A DNA stretch of 36,998 nucleotides, from the IMG/VR virus record IMGVR_UViG_3300043219_000029, positions 1 to 36,998 of that record. The stretch is one strand, 5' to 3'. Under the pieces are notes generated by a model. It made no database searches, was not told the DNA's origin, and was given only the letters and a program-made list of their open reading frames with translations. Positions 902 through 36,998 of the stretch are shown here, piece after piece. Origin of the DNA: a virus. Position 1 is the stretch's first letter. Every line of letters begins with the position of its first letter. The position numbers and the translations under genes were made by a program.

Positions 902-1390
902 TCATTTTTTAGGCTTTCTATATTTCAATCTCTTATTATTATACTTCTCAGCGTAATCAGATCCTAACACCTCCCTTCGTGCTTTATTTAACTCTCTATA
1001 AACAAATCCATAATTAGCATTATTCTCTCTGCCTATCTCTCTGATTGTTCTGTCGTAGCTATCTTCTAGGTATTCTTTTTGTACATACTTTTCTAGGTTA
1101 TTGGCTTTTTCTAGTATTCCTGCTTCATAATCATCTGGCTCGAATATCTTCTGCTTATCTTCAACGTAATATAAACTGTCTATATCAACTGTAGTACCTT
1201 TTTTACGACACATGTCAATCCAAAGGTTACGTATTATCAATATAATATAATAATCGTTTATAGGCTTTGTAATCGTGCTAACTTTTAAATACATGTCTTG
1301 TACTAAATCATCTGCTATAGTTTTATTTTTACAAATGAACGTTGCTGTTGTTCTCCAATACTTATCTTTTTTACAAATATCTTTTAGCAT
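902..1390 (-). CDS. ECF-like RNA polymerase sigma factor, putative late regulator
   Basis: 162 aa from the ATG at 1390. Residues about 11-60 look like sigma region 2: a helix with IADDLVQDMYLKV, followed by IIRNLWIDMCRKK. The C-terminal part (RTIREIGRENNANYGFVYREL) has the spacing of a region 4 helix-turn-helix. Small sigma-70-like proteins of this kind often sit just before the terminase genes in phages of Bacteroidota. An upstream in-frame TTG at 1450 would start inside the previous gene and translate through the promoter, so I reject it. The right-hand version of this locus has no counterpart. DNA binding and a role in late transcription are inferred. Confidence 0.6.
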   Translation of the reverse strand: MLKDICKKDKYWRTTATFICKNKTIADDLVQDMYLKVSTITKPINDYYIILIIRNLWIDMCRKKGTTVDIDSLYYVEDKQKIFEPDDYEAGILEKANNLEKYVQKEYLEDSYDRTIREIGRENNANYGFVYRELNKARREVLGSDYAEKYNNKRLKYRKPKK

Positions 1391-1443
1391 GTGTTTTGTT
1401 TTTCTATGTAAAGATAGTCTATTATTATTTAAGTGTTGTTTTA
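1383..1443 (-). promoter_or_regulatory. Late-type promoter, left copy
   Basis: The block AAAACAACACTTAAATAA, then 6-8 variable bases, then TATCTTTACATAG and AAAAACAAAACACAT is shared with 34963-35025. TATCTTTA (minus strand, about 1409-1416) fits a Bacteroidota -7 box (TAnnTTTG). There is no TTG at -33; the conserved AACAACACTT takes that place. It begins in the stop codon of the upstream gene and ends at the ATG of the sigma-like gene. Confidence 0.55.
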
Positions 1444-1635
1444 CTCCCAATCTTCTTTGTCTATTCCATTTTTAATTATAGTTTTTAATCTTTTTATTTC
1501 TTCTGTTTTTTGTTCTGTTATAGAATCAATAAGTAATATACATTCATCTAGTTTTTTATATCCGTCTGCTTGGTCTGTAAATCCAGCATTTCCTACTTGT
1601 AGTATTTTTAACGCTACTTCTCTTGGGTTTGTCAT
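1441..1635 (-). CDS. Hypothetical protein, helical
   Basis: 64 aa, starting MTNPREVALKILQVGNAG. The second half (TEQKTEEIKRLKTIIKNG) is charged and predicted helical, possibly a short coiled coil. No family is recognised. The stop codon TAA is the first part of the late-type promoter block. In the right-hand copy of this locus the equivalent place, between the same two conserved linkers, is taken by the SPFH-domain gene. It is therefore one of the exchanged accessory genes. Confidence 0.6.
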   Translation of the reverse strand: MTNPREVALKILQVGNAGFTDQADGYKKLDECILLIDSITEQKTEEIKRLKTIIKNGIDKEDWE

Positions 1636-1640
1636 ATCGT

Positions 1641-1973
1641 TTACTTTAAATTATTAAATTTTTCATTTGCCTTATGTATTGCTGATGTTCTTGCTTGGGG
1701 ACGGGTATCATGTACGTTCTTTTCGTCTATTCTGCATCCCCATTTATTTTTACCACTCAATACATATCTTTCAATCTCTATGTATATCCCTACATTATCA
1801 AACCAATCTACGTATACTCCGTATTTCATTGCCTCTGGTAAATGTTCAAAATAGTAGTTTACCCAAACCTCATAATTACCTCCGTGAGGACTAGGAAATG
1901 CATCTAGTAATATCTTGTAGTTTTCGTTTAGCCATTTCTCGAATGCTATTTCTGCCTTATCCGTTAGTTTCAT
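1641..1973 (-). CDS. Hypothetical phage protein
   Basis: 110 aa, beginning MKLTDKAEIAFEKWL, rich in aromatic residues (EVWVNYYFEHLPEAMKYG) and ending ARTSAIHKANEKFNNLK. It is soluble, with no membrane segment and no recognised domain. The start ATG at 1973 is clear. The last 20 codons and the stop are repeated at 35576-35640 as a fragment without the rest of the gene, which shows that an orthologue once stood in the right-hand arm. Upstream lies the conserved 57-nt hairpin region. Confidence 0.65.
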   Translation of the reverse strand: MKLTDKAEIAFEKWLNENYKILLDAFPSPHGGNYEVWVNYYFEHLPEAMKYGVYVDWFDNVGIYIEIERYVLSGKNKWGCRIDEKNVHDTRPQARTSAIHKANEKFNNLK

Positions 1974-2003
1974 ATCGTTTTGTTTTTATTGTCTCTACGC
2001 TGT

Positions 2004-2060
2004 GGGCAGTATGTTGCTATTTATTAGTTAATATACATGTTAATTAGCATTATATTGCCC
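2004..2060. promoter_or_regulatory. Conserved intergenic hairpin, left copy
   Basis: The stem is built from GGGCA/TGCCC, TAT/ATA, TGCTA/TAGCA and TTAA/TTAA around an 8-nt loop. It lies within about 120 nt (1974-2097) that is almost identical to 35814-35938, although the genes on both sides differ between the copies. No U-run follows, so it does not look like a terminator. A cis-acting RNA or protein-binding role is possible but unproven. Confidence 0.5.
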
Positions 2061-2089
2061 GTGGAGCATGTTGACTTAGTTGTTGATTG

Positions 2090-2422
2090 TTAGTTGTTTA
2101 TGGTTTTAGGTAGTTTATCGCATAAAGCAATCCACCGCCAAAAAGCATCATCATCATGTTTCCCTTCTTCGAAATCAAATGCAGAATTAAGGCACGCATA
2201 AGGATTTTTATTATTTACTGCTGGTCTAAGGAATTTTATATCATATTCAATATCAATCTCAAACTCAGGCAATTCAATATTCACCTGCTTAGCTCCTTTT
2301 AATATAATCTCTTTTGCTTTCTTTATTAGTTCTTTGTTTTCCATTTTGTTTAGTTTTATTTCTTCTCCGTGCTTATCGTATGCTTTTTCTCCTTCTGCAT
2401 CTGTTATTAGTATTACGTCCAT
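2090..2422 (-). CDS. Hypothetical protein with exchangeable body and shared 26-codon leader
   Basis: 110 aa. Residues 1-26 (MDVILITDAEGEKAYDKHGE, then EIKLNK) are nearly identical to the start of the 35944-36297 protein; from residue 27 the two are unrelated. A second ATG at 2344 (residue 27) is preceded by AAACTAAACAAA, the same A-rich leader that precedes the first ATG. Either start could be used, giving 110 or 84 aa. The body (MENKELIKKAKEIILKGAKQ) has no recognised domain. The 84-aa form may be the original gene, with the leader read in frame by chance or as a regulatory peptide. Confidence 0.6.
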   Translation of the reverse strand: MDVILITDAEGEKAYDKHGEEIKLNKMENKELIKKAKEIILKGAKQVNIELPEFEIDIEYDIKFLRPAVNNKNPYACLNSAFDFEEGKHDDDAFWRWIALCDKLPKTINN

Positions 2423-2490
2423 TTTGTTTTATTTAGTTTTAATCTTTTATACCTGATATACATACTTATAGTTTGTTAATTCGTTAGGAT
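2330..2490. repeat. Conserved linker (second copy at about 36210-36370)
   Basis: The stretch covers the start region of the 2090-2422 gene, its 5' leader and the intergenic DNA up to the previous gene's stop. It matches the right arm with a handful of substitutions while the genes on either side do not match. It behaves as a boundary for gene exchange. Confidence 0.75.
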
Positions 2491-2850
2491 TTAAACTATC
2501 TCTTTTTGTGTTAATGCGAATACAAAGTTTTGAAGTTGATGTACTGATGTTAGATTTATTGTTTTTACACCTCCTAGTAAGTAAACTTTAAATCCATTAG
2601 TTAAATCAATTTCAATATCTCCAAAAAAACACCAAGTAGCGTTTAGCGGTTTTTCGAAACCTAATTTAAGTAACCAATCTTCTGTTAGTGGTATTGGCTC
2701 TATCGCTTCATTAGAGCACCTTTGGTCTGACTCGTATTCACCTATTTCACACAACCATATTTCGCTATTAAATAAACCTTTTATTTGTTTATTCTTTTTT
2801 AAATAGTCGTTGTAGACATAATTTCCTATTCTTAATTCGTTTGCTTCCAT
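2491..2850 (-). CDS. Hypothetical protein of a common Bacteroidota phage family
   Basis: 119 aa. The N-terminus MEANELRIGNYVYND, the middle IEPIPLTEDWLLKLGFEKP and the C-terminal SVHQLQNFVFALT form a pattern found in many small proteins of Bacteroidota phages and prophages; no function is known to me. It is soluble and about full length for such proteins. It is read from a promoter at 2874-2881 (TATCTTTA). In the right arm the same slot, between the same linkers, holds a YopX-like gene. Confidence 0.7.
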   Translation of the reverse strand: MEANELRIGNYVYNDYLKKNKQIKGLFNSEIWLCEIGEYESDQRCSNEAIEPIPLTEDWLLKLGFEKPLNATWCFFGDIEIDLTNGFKVYLLGGVKTINLTSVHQLQNFVFALTQKEIV

Positions 2851-2959
2851 AATATTTTAGTTTTAATTCACAATAAAGATACAAAAAATAACCATAAAAC
2901 ACTAAGCTTTATACATATAACTATGTTATTTTATATAAAAGCATACAGATATATATATT

Positions 2960-2994
2960 AAAAAATCCCTGCTCGTTATGAATCAAGCAGGGAT
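2960..2994 (-). terminator. Intrinsic terminator, left copy
   Basis: ATCCCTGCT and AGCAGGGAT form a 9-bp stem with a 12-nt loop, followed by a run of T on the minus strand. It ends transcription from the methyltransferase end of the early region or from the promoter at 3046-3054. Confidence 0.8.
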
Positions 2995-3042
2995 ATAATC
3001 TAAAACTAAACATTATGAAACGCAAAACTTACTAACCTTTGC
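2960..3042 (-). ncRNA. Candidate short RNA (about 80 nt), left copy
   Basis: A TATCTTTAC -7-like box at 3046-3054 is followed about 80 nt later by the intrinsic terminator. No meaningful ORF lies between. The unit is perfectly conserved in the right arm (36883-36965). It could be a small RNA or simply a promoter-terminator insulator between modules. Confidence 0.35.
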
Positions 3043-3117
3043 TGTGTAAAGATAATGTTTTATTTTGATCTACTGCTGTTTATTTGGTTTATTTTTATTC
3101 TAGTTCGTTGCTTAGTG

Positions 3118-9347: not shown

Positions 9348-9379
9348 GCTAATCTACGAAACCTTTTTAGTTCTCACAA
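9348..9379 (-). promoter_or_regulatory. Early promoter
   Basis: TTG (9377-9379), 20 bp, then TAGATTAGC (9348-9356). A 21-bp block upstream and over the TTG (AATATTACTTTTATGTTGTG) is repeated at the promoter 16078-16126, so the two early promoters share a control region. Confidence 0.65.
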
Positions 9380-9392
9380 CATAAAAGTAATA

Positions 9393-9587
9393 TTATTTAT
9401 GTTTTTCTTTCATCGCGCAATATCCGAGCTTGTAGTTTTTGTAGTGCCATCCATTGCCTCTGTTAGCTTCTGCCTTTTCTAAAGCGTGACCAAATGTCAT
9501 GTTTTCAATATAGCACAAACTTCCTTTTAATGCTACTACGGTTATAATAGTATTAAAAGGTAATTGATATTTGTCTTGTTTAGCCAT
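9393..9587 (-). CDS. Small hypothetical protein
   Basis: 64 aa, beginning MAKQDKYQLPFNTIITVVAL, ending GWHYKNYKLGYCAMKEKHK. The ATG overlaps the stop of the phosphoesterase gene (TAATG), so translation is coupled. No domain is recognised. The last codons merge with the promoter block that precedes the next gene. Confidence 0.6.
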   Translation of the reverse strand: MAKQDKYQLPFNTIITVVALKGSLCYIENMTFGHALEKAEANRGNGWHYKNYKLGYCAMKEKHK

Positions 9588-15838: not shown

Positions 15839-16057
15839 TCATGATTTAGGGTTTATTTCACTAGTCAACTCACCTTCTGGCATCCACATAAAAGAGTCTT
15901 GTTCTCTATTTCCGTGTTTTAATTTCCATGTACCATTTTCTAAATCCCAACAATCAATAAAACCGAAAGTATTTTCGTCTCCGTATGAATATACTTTTTG
16001 ACCTCGTTTAAATAATTCACCGTTTGGCGAAGTTATTGTTTTTGCATTTTTTCTCAT
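15839..16057 (-). CDS. Small hypothetical protein
   Basis: 72 aa, beginning MRKNAKTITSPNGELFKRGQ, with the patch CWDLENGTWKLKHGNREQDS. It looks like a small beta-barrel fold. It is the first gene behind the promoter at 16078-16109 and so is probably among the earliest transcribed genes. The function is unknown. Confidence 0.6.
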   Translation of the reverse strand: MRKNAKTITSPNGELFKRGQKVYSYGDENTFGFIDCWDLENGTWKLKHGNREQDSFMWMPEGELTSEINPKS

Positions 16058-16077: not shown

Positions 16078-16109
16078 GCTAATGTACAATAAAATATCCA
16101 TTCCCACAA
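16078..16109 (-). promoter_or_regulatory. Early promoter
   Basis: TTG (16107-16109), 20 bp, then TACATTAGC (16078-16086). The upstream block over the TTG (16105-16126) is shared with the promoter at 9348-9379. It starts the early transcript that runs left. Confidence 0.65.
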
Positions 16110-16152
16110 CATAAAAGTAATATTAATTTCGTTTTATTTAAGTTTAGCGCAT

Positions 16153-16180
16153 AAAAAAAGCCACTCGTTTGAATGGCTTT
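16153..16180 (-). terminator. Intrinsic terminator of the noncoding RNA unit
   Basis: AAAGCCATTC and GAGTGGCTTT form a 10-bp stem (one G-U) with loop AAAC, followed by T-rich sequence. Confidence 0.85.
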
Positions 16181-16412
16181 AATCTCTTTATCCTAATTTC
16201 AGTTACGAACTTAAATTGTGATGAGTCCATCTTACTTAAAAGAAGTATACCACCTTTCTATCGTTTGTGTTGATACCAATTCAATCTATACAATAAACAC
16301 GACTGCTGATACAGACTAATAACGTTAGTATTAGGACTTTCACCTCGTGAGCACCCTTCTAATTGATATCATGTACCATGGCGTCTCCGTTATCGTTTAT
16401 CTTCAAGTAAAG
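16153..16412 (-). ncRNA. Candidate structured noncoding RNA (about 260 nt)
   Basis: This occupies the only gene-free stretch longer than 300 nt (16058-16507). It has its own promoter (16417-16447) and terminator, and no ORF longer than a few codons. Long-range pairing is visible: CTCTTT near the 5' end with AAAGAG just before the terminator; ACTTGAA with TTTAAGT inside that; and TGATATCAATT (16361-16371) with AATTGGTATCA (16269-16279), 11 bp with one G-U. Local hairpins include CTAATA-N7-TATTAG and TCAC-GAG-GTGA. I do not recognise a known class; it is not tmRNA, RNase P or a group I intron by the motifs I know. Confidence 0.65.
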
Positions 16413-16416
16413 AGTT

Positions 16417-16447
16417 GCTAATATATAAATACTTTTTCGATATACAA
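16417..16447 (-). promoter_or_regulatory. Promoter of the noncoding RNA
   Basis: TTG (16445-16447), 19 bp, then TATATTAGC (16417-16425), matching the boxes of the two early promoters. It lies directly behind the terminator of the lysis operon. Confidence 0.6.
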
Positions 16448-16448
16448 T

Positions 16449-16478
16449 AAAAAAAAGGATATAAAATAAATTATACCC
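16449..16478 (-). terminator. Intrinsic terminator of the late/lysis operon
   Basis: GGGTATAA and TTATATCC form an 8-bp stem (one G-U) with a 6-nt loop, followed by eight T. It closes the long late transcript just after the spanin-like gene. Confidence 0.85.
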
Positions 16479-16507
16479 TCTTTTAAACCCACCCAACTAA
16501 ATATCTT

Positions 16508-16879
16508 TTAAAATATCTTTTTTATCTGCCTACCAATCCAAGTCTTTTTCTTTGGTTTTTTCGGCACCTCGTTAATAGTATCGATACTTTGTTCATTATC
16601 TTTTACGGTGATTAGTTGCGCTTCTGTTTCTGGAACGAATACAAGTTTAGATCCTCGTTTAACTTTGGTTCCTGTGATCTGATTAGTTACGTTTAATTTC
16701 GGTACCTCAGCTATTTTAATGATAGACTTTTGCCATTGTTGCATAACTTCGTCTTGGTGGTCGATTCGTGCGCTTAAAGCTCTGTTTTCGCCTTTGACGT
16801 ACACGTAGCCTATTACTATTCCTGCTGTTAATAATAGTGCATATCTGAATAATCTGTTTTTAAATAATATTGCTATCAT
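16508..16879 (-). CDS. Spanin-like inner-membrane protein
   Basis: 123 aa. One N-terminal membrane segment (about residues 12-28, YALLLTAGIVIGYVYVK), a periplasmic helical part (LSARIDHQDEVMQQWQKSI), and a basic C-terminus (KKPKKKTWIGRQIKKIF). The topology and position after the endolysin fit an Rz-like i-spanin that disrupts the outer membrane. No partner o-spanin with a lipobox was found. The role is inferred from topology and context only. Confidence 0.5.
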   Translation of the reverse strand: MIAILFKNRLFRYALLLTAGIVIGYVYVKGENRALSARIDHQDEVMQQWQKSIIKIAEVPKLNVTNQITGTKVKRGSKLVFVPETEAQLITVKDNEQSIDTINEVPKKPKKKTWIGRQIKKIF

Positions 16880-16889
16880 AATTTAAGTT

Positions 16890-17243
16890 TTAATATAACC
16901 AAGTTACTTGTTTGTCTTTGTTTGGGTCGTTGTCTACGTGAATAAAAGTCTTTCCTATGCCTATACGAGTAAATCCAACCGCGATTAACGCATGTAATAT
17001 GATAAAACGTGTTCTACTATCCGTTGCCTTTAAATCGACCGCATAGCCTTTTAAATGACTTGAGCCGCTTTTGCCTCCTGCATCTTCGTTATGTTCTGTA
17101 GTTCTCCAACCTGAGTTAACTATAAACGGAACTCCTGCAATCTCTCGCGCGTCGTCTAACATGTTTAAAAAAGATCGTTTCATGTTCTTACCGCTTCCTT
17201 TTTGGTCGGGGCTGTCAAATTCTGAGTGGGTGAAATGTATCAT
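16890..17243 (-). CDS. Endolysin, peptidase M15 family
   Basis: 117 aa, length typical of the M15_3 (VanY/L-Ala-D-Glu) group. The zinc site is complete: SSHLKGYAVD gives H63 and D70, and IHVD gives H102, with D104 alongside. The SGWRTTEHN segment (44-52) is the conserved substrate-binding loop. It cleaves peptide cross-links in peptidoglycan at lysis. No signal peptide is present, so it needs a holin; holin candidates lie just upstream. Confidence 0.9.
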   Translation of the reverse strand: MIHFTHSEFDSPDQKGSGKNMKRSFLNMLDDAREIAGVPFIVNSGWRTTEHNEDAGGKSGSSHLKGYAVDLKATDSRTRFIILHALIAVGFTRIGIGKTFIHVDNDPNKDKQVTWLY

Positions 17244-17303: not shown

Positions 17304-17549
17304 TTATACTAATACTTTGGTTATAACTATTTTTAAAATCCATCCTATACCTCCACCGATTAAACCAAACACAGCACCTATCTTAAACGTCTGCATTTGC
17401 ATGTCTTTTATAGTGTCCTTGATTATTCCAACCTCTTCTACTATTCCTTTTTGATTTGTAGCTGGGTCGCTTTCTAAGTGAAAAAGAATCCTTGTTACCT
17501 TGTCGTTAAGGTCTTTTATGTCTTTTTCTCGTTTTTCTTCTGTGGTCAT
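17304..17549 (-). CDS. XhlA-like holin accessory membrane protein
   Basis: 81 aa. A charged coiled N-terminus (TTEEKREKDIKDLNDKVTRI) is followed by one C-terminal membrane segment (about residues 57-79, IGAVFGLIGGGIGWILKIVI). This layout resembles XhlA-type proteins that act with a holin and endolysin. The start overlaps the stop of the upstream membrane protein by 4 nt. The assignment rests on architecture. Confidence 0.5.
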   Translation of the reverse strand: MTTEEKREKDIKDLNDKVTRILFHLESDPATNQKGIVEEVGIIKDTIKDMQMQTFKIGAVFGLIGGGIGWILKIVITKVLV

Positions 17550-17905
17550 TTCTTGTAATATTTGGAGGTTTTATACCAATCGTAACCGCTTATTACAAGA
17601 GTTGCAATTATCATGTATATATCTGCTTGTGTAAATTCTAATACGTTAAAATATAATTTATCTATTACGTTTGATATTGTAAATCCAATTCCGACCGACA
17701 ATACAAATCTTAATAATCCTTTAGTTCCTATTTGAGCTGATAAAAACACCGTAGCGATTATAACAGCATAAATATTAGACTTCAACCTCCACCACCCTTT
17801 TGAGTCTAATATTCCATCTGTAAAATAAAAATGATCACATATAGCGTAGTTACTTACAAATAATGTAATTGCTATAATGATTAATATTATCTTAGCCTCT
17901 TTCAT
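17546..17905 (-). CDS. Multi-pass membrane protein, holin candidate
   Basis: 119 aa from the ATG at 17905, which overlaps the end of the previous gene. A TTG at 17929 gives eight more residues but is less likely. There are four hydrophobic segments (IILIIIAITLFVSNYAI, then IYAVIIATVFLSAQIG, then FVLSVGIGFTISNVI, then IYMIIATLVISGYDWY) and a basic end. It is in the lysis cluster and could be the holin. Confidence 0.55.
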   Translation of the reverse strand: MKEAKIILIIIAITLFVSNYAICDHFYFTDGILDSKGWWRLKSNIYAVIIATVFLSAQIGTKGLLRFVLSVGIGFTISNVIDKLYFNVLEFTQADIYMIIATLVISGYDWYKTSKYYKK

Positions 17906-18137
17906 CTGGTGTTTCTCTGTCGGGATCAACCGTCATACCTATAGAATGCGACTTATCACCGTCTTTAGCAAAAAGGTTTCCTACTATACTACCTATCCCT
18001 ATAACTAAAGGAATCCCTATCTGTAGCCCTGTAATATCTATCTTACCAAGATAGAACATAACTAATACAGATATACATAGTACTAATTGTGCTATAGCTA
18101 CCGATGTTGTTTTCCAACTCTTTAAAATGTTATTCAT
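17892..18137 (-). CDS. Small membrane protein, holin candidate
   Basis: 81 aa. Two membrane segments: about residues 11-30 (VAIAQLVLCISVLVMFYLG) and 37-55 (GLQIGIPLVIGIGSIVGNLF), then a charged tail (DPDRETPDERG). Two-segment small proteins next to an endolysin are often holins. The tail overlaps the start of the next gene. The choice between this and the following gene as the holin cannot be made from sequence. Confidence 0.55.
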   Translation of the reverse strand: MNNILKSWKTTSVAIAQLVLCISVLVMFYLGKIDITGLQIGIPLVIGIGSIVGNLFAKDGDKSHSIGMTVDPDRETPDERG

Positions 18138-34910: not shown

Positions 34911-34962
34911 TAACTAGATTTTAATATACAAATGTAAGAATTATTTTTTACATAGGGTTATT

Positions 34963-35025
34963 TAGTATGTGTTTTGTTTTTCTATGTAAAGATACGAATT
35001 ATTTATTTAAGTGTTGTTTTACTCT
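34963..35025 (-). promoter_or_regulatory. Late promoter, right copy
   Basis: AAAACAACACTTAAATAA, then TATCTTTACATAG, then AAAAACAAAACACAT. TATCTTTAC is at 34986-34994. It lies in the gap between the SPFH gene and TerS and is conserved at 1383-1443 where different genes follow, so the promoter is under selection independent of its target. It drives the head, tail and lysis genes down to the terminator at 16449-16478. Confidence 0.6.
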
Positions 35026-35568
35026 CTACTTAGATTCATTCATACTTAGTCCTTCATGATAGAAATTTTGGTCTTGAATCAATCTAAATGTTTTTACTAC
35101 TGCAAAATTAGTCACTTTAAAATATGTGAATTCTAATCCGTAATCTAGTTCTTTTAATCCGTTTAAAATAGACTCCTCTAATTCATTATGTGATATATCT
35201 TTATAGTCTTTAGAACATATAAAAGTAGATACCTCAGACATTACCATGTTACTTATAGTTGTCTCTGGATGGTATAAATTATCATATAACTTATTTATAT
35301 CTGTTACAGAATAACCGACCGCACCATTTAATGTAATTGTTTTACCGTCTAAAGTCGTAATTGTTTGAGTTGCTAAACTTATAACTCTTAATCTTGATTC
35401 TTGAATATAGACGCTATCAAAATAAGGTAGTCTAAAGTAAATCCCTTTACTTAGGTTTTTAACTTTCTTTCCGTACCTAATTCTTAATCCGGTCTCCCAT
35501 GGCATTACAATAACCCATATCTTAACTGCATTAAAAAAATATTCGAAAAGTTGTTGTACTTGGTTCAT
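35026..35568 (-). CDS. SPFH / band-7 domain protein
   Basis: 180 aa. A short N-terminal hydrophobic stretch (AVKIWVIVMPWETGLRIRYG) leads into an SPFH core: GKKVKNLSKGIYFRLPYFDS, then ESRLRVISLATQTITTLDGK and ITLNGAVGYSVTDINKLYDN. Members form membrane-bound rings or scaffolds (prohibitin, stomatin, HflK/C). It is unusual in phages. It could protect against or exploit host membrane proteases. It lies just before the late promoter and is replaced by another gene in the left arm. Confidence 0.8.
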   Translation of the reverse strand: MNQVQQLFEYFFNAVKIWVIVMPWETGLRIRYGKKVKNLSKGIYFRLPYFDSVYIQESRLRVISLATQTITTLDGKTITLNGAVGYSVTDINKLYDNLYHPETTISNMVMSEVSTFICSKDYKDISHNELEESILNGLKELDYGLEFTYFKVTNFAVVKTFRLIQDQNFYHEGLSMNESK

Positions 35569-35575
35569 ATCTCGT

Positions 35576-35640
35576 TTACTTTAAATTATTAAATTTTTCA
35601 TTTGCCTTATGTACTGCTGCTGTTCTTGCTTTGGGGCGGG
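35576..35640 (-). pseudogene. Remnant of the 1641-1973 gene
   Basis: About 20 codons (RPKARTAAVHKANEKFNNLK and stop) match the C-terminus of the 1641-1973 protein. Upstream the similarity stops exactly where a different gene ends (35641), and the frame meets a stop codon within a few codons. It is the scar of a gene replacement. Confidence 0.8.
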
Positions 35641-35814
35641 TTAACTTATTAAAACTACCTCTTCTAAGTTAATAATATATTCGGAATGGTCCGAGCCTTC
35701 TTTATGAAAGCACTGAAACTTTTGTGCTCCGTTTATAATTCTGTTATGTATAGTGCTTGCATCTTCATCTGTAATTATAAATGTTGCGTTGTTTTTAAAT
35801 AATACTGTTTTCAT
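35641..35814 (-). CDS. Small hypothetical protein
   Basis: 57 aa (MKTVLFKNNATFIITDEDAS). It occupies the place of the gene at 1641-1973, between the conserved hairpin region and the remnant of that gene. Mixed strand and helix content, with no recognised family. Confidence 0.55.
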   Translation of the reverse strand: MKTVLFKNNATFIITDEDASTIHNRIINGAQKFQCFHKEGSDHSEYIINLEEVVLIS

Positions 35815-35844
35815 ATCGTTGTGTTTTTATTGTCTCTACGCTGT

Positions 35845-35901
35845 GGGCAGTATGTTGCTATTTATTAGTTAATATACATGTTAATTAGCATTATATTGCC
35901 C
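35845..35901. promoter_or_regulatory. Conserved intergenic hairpin, right copy
   Basis: Identical 57-nt hairpin sequence to 2004-2060 (GGGCA/TGCCC outer stem, TGCTA/TAGCA inner stem). The surrounding 120 nt differ by only a few substitutions. Confidence 0.5.
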
Positions 35902-35943
35902 GTGGAGCATGTTGACTTAATTGTTGATTGTTAGGTGTTTAGT

Positions 35944-36297
35944 TTATAGTGATAAATTGAATTTTACTTTAAAACAACTTAATAAAGTGAATAGTTCTGG
36001 TTTTGAAGTAATATCTAAATGGATATAATTCGACTTACTACCAATAACTGTTTTATGATACCATGCGTAAACTTCTTTATTTGGATTAAAGTAGAAGCAT
36101 CCGTTTATGGTTGGTATTTTAAAGAACTCTTTTGATGGATTCATTTTATTAGATTTTGATATGCGCTTTTTAAACCCTATTTCTAATAGTTCATTTTCTG
36201 TTAATTGTAATTGTTTCATTTTGTTTAGTTTTATTTCTTCTCCGTACTTATCGTATGCTCTTTCTCCTTCTGCATCTGTTATTAGTATTACTTCCAT
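35944..36297 (-). CDS. Hypothetical protein with shared 26-codon leader
   Basis: 117 aa. Residues 1-26 (MEVILITDAEGERAYDKYGE, then EIKLNK) match the start of the 2090-2422 protein with three substitutions, while the body (MKQLQLTENELLEIGFKKRI and on) is unrelated to it. A second ATG at 36219 has the same AAACTAAACAAA leader and would give a 91-aa product. The body ends with LDITSKPELFTLLSCFKVKF, similar in style to small Bacteroidota phage proteins of unknown function. Confidence 0.6.
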   Translation of the reverse strand: MEVILITDAEGERAYDKYGEEIKLNKMKQLQLTENELLEIGFKKRISKSNKMNPSKEFFKIPTINGCFYFNPNKEVYAWYHKTVIGSKSNYIHLDITSKPELFTLLSCFKVKFNLSL

Positions 36298-36393
36298 TTT
36301 GTTTTATTTAGTTTTAATCTTTTATACCTGATATACATACTTATAGTTTGTTAATTCGTTAGAATCTAAACTATTAGTGTTTTTATAGTTTAT

Positions 36394-36777
36394 TTAGTTG
36401 GTGGTTTTGGTGTTTACATGTATATTTCCTATTATTTCTATCTTAAAAGTAGTCATAAATAATATGCTTGTGTGTATTTTTCTATTAGATACATCTTTTT
36501 TCGTCCATTCATCCCATACCTTAGAAGCAACAAAACTGTTATCATGCCAAATTGTTATATATTTATCGTTAGTATCTGTTCTTTTAAATATATCACCTTC
36601 GTAAATATAAGTTCCATTTTCGTCTTTGCATCCTGTATATTGCCTAATATACATAATTGGCAATATACCCCAAACATCACACTTTTCAGCTATATTTGGA
36701 ATTTCTGATAAATAATATGTTTTTTTAACAATACCATTAACGCTTTTAAATCCATATTCAAATTTTAGTTGTCTCAT
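36394..36777 (-). CDS. YopX-family protein
   Basis: 127 aa. MYIRQYTGCKDENGTYIYEG (residues 43-62) is the YopX signature (RQYTGxKDxNGxxIYEGD), followed by WHDNSFVAS and a C-terminal IEIIGNIHVN. YopX proteins are common in phages and prophages and have unknown function. It is the first gene behind a promoter at 36799-36806. In the left arm the slot is held by the 2491-2850 gene. Confidence 0.85.
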   Translation of the reverse strand: MRQLKFEYGFKSVNGIVKKTYYLSEIPNIAEKCDVWGILPIMYIRQYTGCKDENGTYIYEGDIFKRTDTNDKYITIWHDNSFVASKVWDEWTKKDVSNRKIHTSILFMTTFKIEIIGNIHVNTKTTN

Positions 36778-36998
36778 AATATTAGTTTTAATTTACAATA
36801 AAGATACATTAATAATTCGTAAAACACTAAGCTTTATACATATAACTATGTTATTCTATGTAAAAGCATACAGATATATATTAAAAAATCCCTGCTCGTT
36901 ATGAATCAAGCAGGGATATAATCTAAAACTAAACATTATGAAACGCAAAACTTACTAACCTTTGCTGTGTAAAGATAATGTTTTATTTTGATCTACTG
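36778..36998. repeat. Conserved linker, right copy (continues past the window)
   Basis: It matches 2851-3075 along its full length. 36874-36998 is identical to 2951-3075, and the match is still running at the last base. It contains the promoter boxes (36799-36806, 36969-36977), the terminator (36883-36917) and the same short RNA unit. Confidence 0.85.
36883..36917 (-). terminator. Intrinsic terminator, right copy
   Basis: Same 9-bp stem ATCCCTGCT/AGCAGGGAT and T-run as at 2960-2994. Confidence 0.8.

Follow-up and report, generated by a model that had tools for sequence, protein, structure and literature searches.

A candidate small-RNA gene forming a presence/absence cassette between the lysis and early operons of a Flavobacteria-type phage, with an antisense match to a lysis gene

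The analyzed stretch of DNA (hereafter, the window), a virus record from IMG/VR, was 36,998 bases long, with nearly all genes encoded on the minus strand. Its terminase was 65% identical to that of Cellulophaga phage phi10:1 and 55% identical to that of Flavobacterium phage 11b; therefore, the window represents a Flavobacteria-type tailed phage. An RNA unit was located between the lysis cluster and an operon of small early-type genes beginning at 16057 (Table 1), and its sequence was recovered on the minus strand exactly where the initial annotation had placed it. We infer that the product of the last gene of the lysis cluster, for which no family match was obtained, is i-spanin-like. At the two ends of the record (1383-3075 and 34961-36998), five mostly intergenic blocks of 65-228 nt with 91-98% identity were present in the same order; the gene content between these blocks mostly differed, and genes 2090-2422 and 35944-36297 had only the N-terminus in common. 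These ends look as if cassettes of small genes had been exchanged between homologous borders.

Table 1. Features of the lysis/early junction and its surroundings (positions in the window)
Feature	Position	Strand	Remarks
Early-operon promoter region (TTAATATTACTTTTATGTTGTG ... TACATTAG), downstream of the RNA unit	16079-16126	-	Conserved in relatives L017 and L018
Intrinsic terminator T2 of the RNA unit	16153-16180	-	10-bp hairpin (16180-16157) and T-run
Predicted small RNA, about 261 nt	16153-16413	-	Start from -7 box spacing, +/-2 nt
RNA segment antisense to the start region of 16508-16879	16208-16241	-	By alignment; energy test weaker
Predicted promoter of the RNA, TTG-N19-TATATTAGCA, also written TTG-N19-TATATTAG(CA)	16416-16447	-	Pattern match; Bacteroidetes sigma-A type
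Intrinsic terminator T1, closing the late/lysis operon	16449-16480	-	10-bp stem, U8 tail
Last lysis-cluster gene, 123 aa; candidate target	16508-16879	-	N-terminal transmembrane segment
Complementary site on the lysis-gene mRNA	16858-16889	-	Covers start codon 16879-16877
Endolysin, Peptidase_M15_3	16890-17243	-	Pfam 2.2e-14; PHROG 894 endolysin
Small membrane proteins of the lysis cluster	17304-18137

The RNA unit begins directly 3' of T1, the separate terminator of the lysis operon. The hairpins of both terminators were stable (-9.6 kcal/mol for T1 and -12.6 kcal/mol for T2), and none of 200 shuffled sequences reached the stability of either. The pattern TTG-N18-21-TAnnTTnGCA had four matches on the minus strand and none on the plus strand of the window, and a reversed-pattern control gave no matches. 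The -7 box of the RNA promoter (TAnATTAGCA) was common to the early promoters of the window at 9379 and 16109, which are two of the other pattern matches. Both of these are located in gaps upstream of genes and carry the upstream element (A/T)TAATATTACTTTTATGTTGTG; the RNA promoter lacks this element and has the -7 box alone in common with them. Since the Bacteroidetes -7 consensus, TAnnTTTG, lies at positions -12 to -5 (PMC9723704), the RNA start was placed near 16413. Thus, the unit has the promoter and terminator of its own that had been claimed for it, and the promoter-RNA-terminator unit is real as a sequence. The RNA as a leader of the early operon was rejected because the early promoter (16109) is situated downstream of T2. 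An extended promoter element of 35 nt, TTAATATTACTTTTATGTTGTG...TTG-N20-TAnATTAGCA, was found twice in the window (9371-9405 and 16101-16135) and also at the corresponding position of L017 and L018; it probably represents a phage-specific early promoter class.

No ORF of at least 50 aa was found in the RNA unit. Its frames included only one of 28 codons with an ATG start (16230-16144), which runs through T2, and one of 20 codons with a GTG start (16343-16281, minus strand, MKVLILTLLVCISSRVYCID), so that the absence of a convincing ORF agrees with the initial annotation. The 20-codon frame is hydrophobic and resembles a small membrane peptide, which would suit a unit serving as the mRNA of a short micropeptide encoded by one of these two frames. 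However, the GTG start lies deep within the RNA, the 28-codon frame extends across T2, neither frame matched a family, and frames of such sizes are expected by chance alone; a micropeptide mRNA is therefore highly unlikely, and the hydrophobic frame itself is likely due to chance.

We analyzed the same site in two close relatives, the lysis proteins of which were 88% (L017) and 82% (L018) identical to that of the window. In both, the flank that follows the lysis gene (ATATTTAGTTGGGT...) and the one preceding the early promoter (ATGCGCTAAA...TTAATATTACTTTTATGTTGTGG) were conserved and joined by a single terminator, while the window contained T1, the promoter, the RNA, and T2, i.e., about 300 bp more. 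No other copy of the RNA was found in the whole records of these two phages. Hence the unit, judged from its sequence, represents a cassette of about 300 bp that is either present or absent and has a moron-like layout: it has its own promoter and terminator and is absent at the same site with the flanks kept, gain and loss being indistinguishable with two relatives. This layout, typical of morons, together with the absence from both relatives and with the few stops in minus-strand frame 2 of the unit, could also have resulted from the decay of a protein-coding accessory (moron) gene, which retained its promoter and terminator and has no product. Against such a decayed gene, nothing protein-like was detected in the frames: the longest frame pieces of the unit matched no Pfam family, and frame 2 with its stops read through had no encoded relative in IMG/VR. 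The promoter and terminator are, moreover, intact. We consider this explanation improbable.

Known RNA classes were sought with the covariance models of Rfam 15 (4227 families), which gave no matches in the window at the gathering score; thus, no known class was matched. The best sub-threshold matches were leader models driven by the terminator; accordingly, a Phe/Trp leader was rejected, its match being below the gathering score and driven by the terminator hairpin. RNase P, group I and group II introns, and 6S RNA, parts of several of which GAGGUGAAAGUCC resembles, were also rejected, as no Rfam match was obtained even with lax filters. Blastn searches yielded only chance matches of 27-35 nt among phages and no homologue among plasmids. 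Pattern scans of IMG/VR, which detect near-identical sequence only, returned five unrelated matches for the exact pattern CACGAGGTGAAAGTCC, none for GTGAAAGTCC-N-GGACTCATCAC, and eight unrelated ones for ATAACGGAGACGCCAT; the pattern of the conserved flank retrieved only L017 and L018, and six back-translated segments taken from along the RNA gave no confirmed match. Only short chance-level matches were present in 399 Flavobacteriaceae genomes, the longest of them (in L044) resembling coding sequence. No homologue was found in 396 genomes at the order level (the order of a Flavobacteriaceae genome), in the whole records of 27 terminase-sharing phage relatives, or by nhmmer over all collected loci, although records very close to the window may have been outside the searched set. 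The earlier description of the unit as an orphan non-coding one between the lysis and early operons is thus supported: it has a promoter and a terminator and lacks a convincing ORF, an Rfam match, and homologues in the records searched. In a related phage with an early protein 52% identical to that of the window, a region of 536 bases (L160:4894-5430) had no ORF of at least 45 aa on the coding strand; it was not similar to the RNA of the window and matched nothing in Rfam.

The initial annotation had described a structured RNA with three nested long-range helices, unlikely to arise by chance. All three helices could be drawn within the 16414-16184 span (16414-16408/16190-16184, 16408-16402/16215-16209, and 16371-16361/16281-16271), the end helix and the second helix overlapping by one base, A16408. 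The folding energy of the whole interval was at the level of shuffled sequences (MFE z = -0.51), and the same was true of the RNA core without the terminator (z = +0.3) and of the full unit (z = -1.2); the higher fold stability relative to shuffles that is expected of a conserved structured RNA was thus not observed (z = -0.51; core, z = +0.3). Taken singly, each helix had an energy inside the shuffle range. According to post hoc figures, the three-helix nest appeared in 2.05% of 2000 shuffles, the two inner helices in 21%, and the 7-bp end helix in 9%. The MFE fold contained the two outer helices and lacked the 11-bp one; forcing all three costs 3.6 kcal/mol (-53.4 versus -57.0 kcal/mol). The claimed special folding is therefore indistinguishable from chance, and with a single sequence available, the structured-RNA claim is weak and not supported.

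An orphan structured RNA that functions via its long-range fold, in the manner of a riboswitch, ribozyme, or scaffold, would be consistent with the pairing of the 5' and 3' ends beside the promoter start and the terminator, with the rarity of the nest (only about 2% of shuffles), and with an extra crossing pairing, GUGA(A)AGUCC/GGACU(CA)UCAC, which can be drawn by eye. The core z value, the shuffle-level energies of the single helices, the loss of the 11-bp helix from the MFE fold, and the lack of an Rfam match and of homologues all speak against it, and we regard such an RNA as rather improbable. In its most far-reaching form, the RNA would be the founding member of an undescribed phage RNA class whose long-range fold, possibly pseudoknotted, is functional, and it would be carried by a mobile promoter-RNA-terminator cassette located where the lysis and early regions of Bacteroidetes phages meet; this form is very improbable. 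Of the earlier suggestion of an undescribed phage RNA, there remains the fact that no relative was found; the unit is better explained as an ordinary small RNA acting by base pairing than as a new structural class.

When the RNA was compared with the rest of the window, its best match was antisense to 16889-16858, a segment that spans the start codon of the last lysis gene. The predicted pairing consists of 10 bp including one G-U, a loop, 4 bp, a mismatch, and another 10 bp. The pairing score at the 16879 start was 45.5, compared with 23.3 +/- 3.8 for 625 real minus-strand stretches; it was reached at this site by none of these 625 stretches, none of 1324 related-phage stretches, and none of 500 shuffled RNAs. 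Among 60 start regions, that of 16879 ranked first, with a score reached by 1 of 300 shuffled RNAs; when any of the 60 start regions was allowed, 10 of the 625 real stretches attained the same alignment score. The duplex energy at the site was -18.6 kcal/mol, a value as good being found for 6 of 605 real stretches, and better energies were calculated for the start regions 25809, 17929, and 33120. The site was intact in L019 (record G004; M15 endolysin 85% identical), with a duplex energy of -18.4 kcal/mol. The pairing of 16241-16208 with 16889-16858 is AU-rich, the match was found post hoc, and the predicted fold already pairs part of the RNA segment involved. Complementarity to an initiation region, a mark of base-pairing small RNAs, was thus strong by alignment score and moderate by energy, and the antisense match to the start of 16508-16879 appears to be a real but moderate lead. 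Translation initiation in Flavobacterium johnsoniae needs adenines at -3, -6, -12, and -13 and an unstructured start region (PMC6847099); the predicted pairing would mask such a region.

The same promoter and terminator are also compatible with a small RNA that acts on host RNAs, by target repression or as a sponge, and not on the phage lysis gene. Phage small RNAs of this kind include PreS, acting on host dnaN, and the anti-sRNAs AgvB and AsxR (PMC12197685), and the AgvB/AsxR group is encoded beside moron insertion sites (PMC4104026). The existence of a candidate target in the phage itself counts against action on host RNAs, which we consider unlikely.

Quite probably, judging from the features described above, the unit is a real small-RNA gene. 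Our proposal, put forward tentatively and with somewhat less than even confidence, is that the cassette is an accessory phage small-RNA gene, the product of which pairs with mRNA and perhaps delays lysis. The housekeeping-type (early) promoter at 16447-16416 would start a transcript of about 260 nt ending at T2, and the RNA would most likely act on mRNA through imperfect base pairing. Its foremost candidate target is the adjacent spanin-like gene at its start region, where RNA positions 16241-16208, if paired in vivo with mRNA positions 16889-16858, would mask both the start codon and the A-rich Bacteroidetes initiation region. The lysis protein would then be held back or trimmed until the late mRNA exceeds the RNA. 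Action on this particular gene (16508-16879) is possible, yet we regard it as doubtful. Silencing of the last lysis gene alone might have little effect on lysis timing, which counts against the proposal.

If transcribed, the unit would offer a clean case of an accessory RNA gene, with two relatives naturally lacking the RNA to compare it with, and the antisense timing of lysis could be tested in bacteria whose translation does without Shine-Dalgarno sequences. No description of a small RNA of a Flavobacterium-type phage was found in the open-access literature searched.

Known small phage RNAs that pair with the mRNA of a regulatory gene of the phage are sar of P22, c4 of P1 and P7, and OOP of lambda. 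The pairing of sar and c4 blocks translation initiation, and the three RNAs act on an antirepressor or on cII in the lysis/lysogeny decision. The RNA of the window resembles them in being a predicted small phage RNA with a candidate pairing to a phage mRNA; it differs in that its candidate target belongs to the late lysis genes, and in that the phage is a Bacteroidetes one without Shine-Dalgarno initiation.

Antisense RNAs directed at late and lysis genes of other phages provide precedents for our proposal. PAK_P4as15 of Pseudomonas phage PAK_P4 is an antisense RNA at the endolysin gene, absent from the related phage PAK_P3 and proposed to repress translation and delay lysis (PMC12197685); in PAK_P3, early antisense RNAs extend across late genes (PMC4933390). 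Like PAK_P4as15, the predicted RNA of the window would be a phage RNA tied to a lysis gene, and it is absent from close relatives. Unlike PAK_P4as15, which lies at the endolysin gene, it is located on the same strand at a distance of about 0.6 kb downstream, and would pair imperfectly with a spanin-like candidate target. The small RNAs of lambdoid moron sites (the EcOnc group, AgvB, and AsxR) are likewise accessory RNA genes located in or beside a moron site; these RNAs differ from ours in being 51-60 nt long, Hfq-bound, and antagonistic to host small RNAs (PMC4104026).
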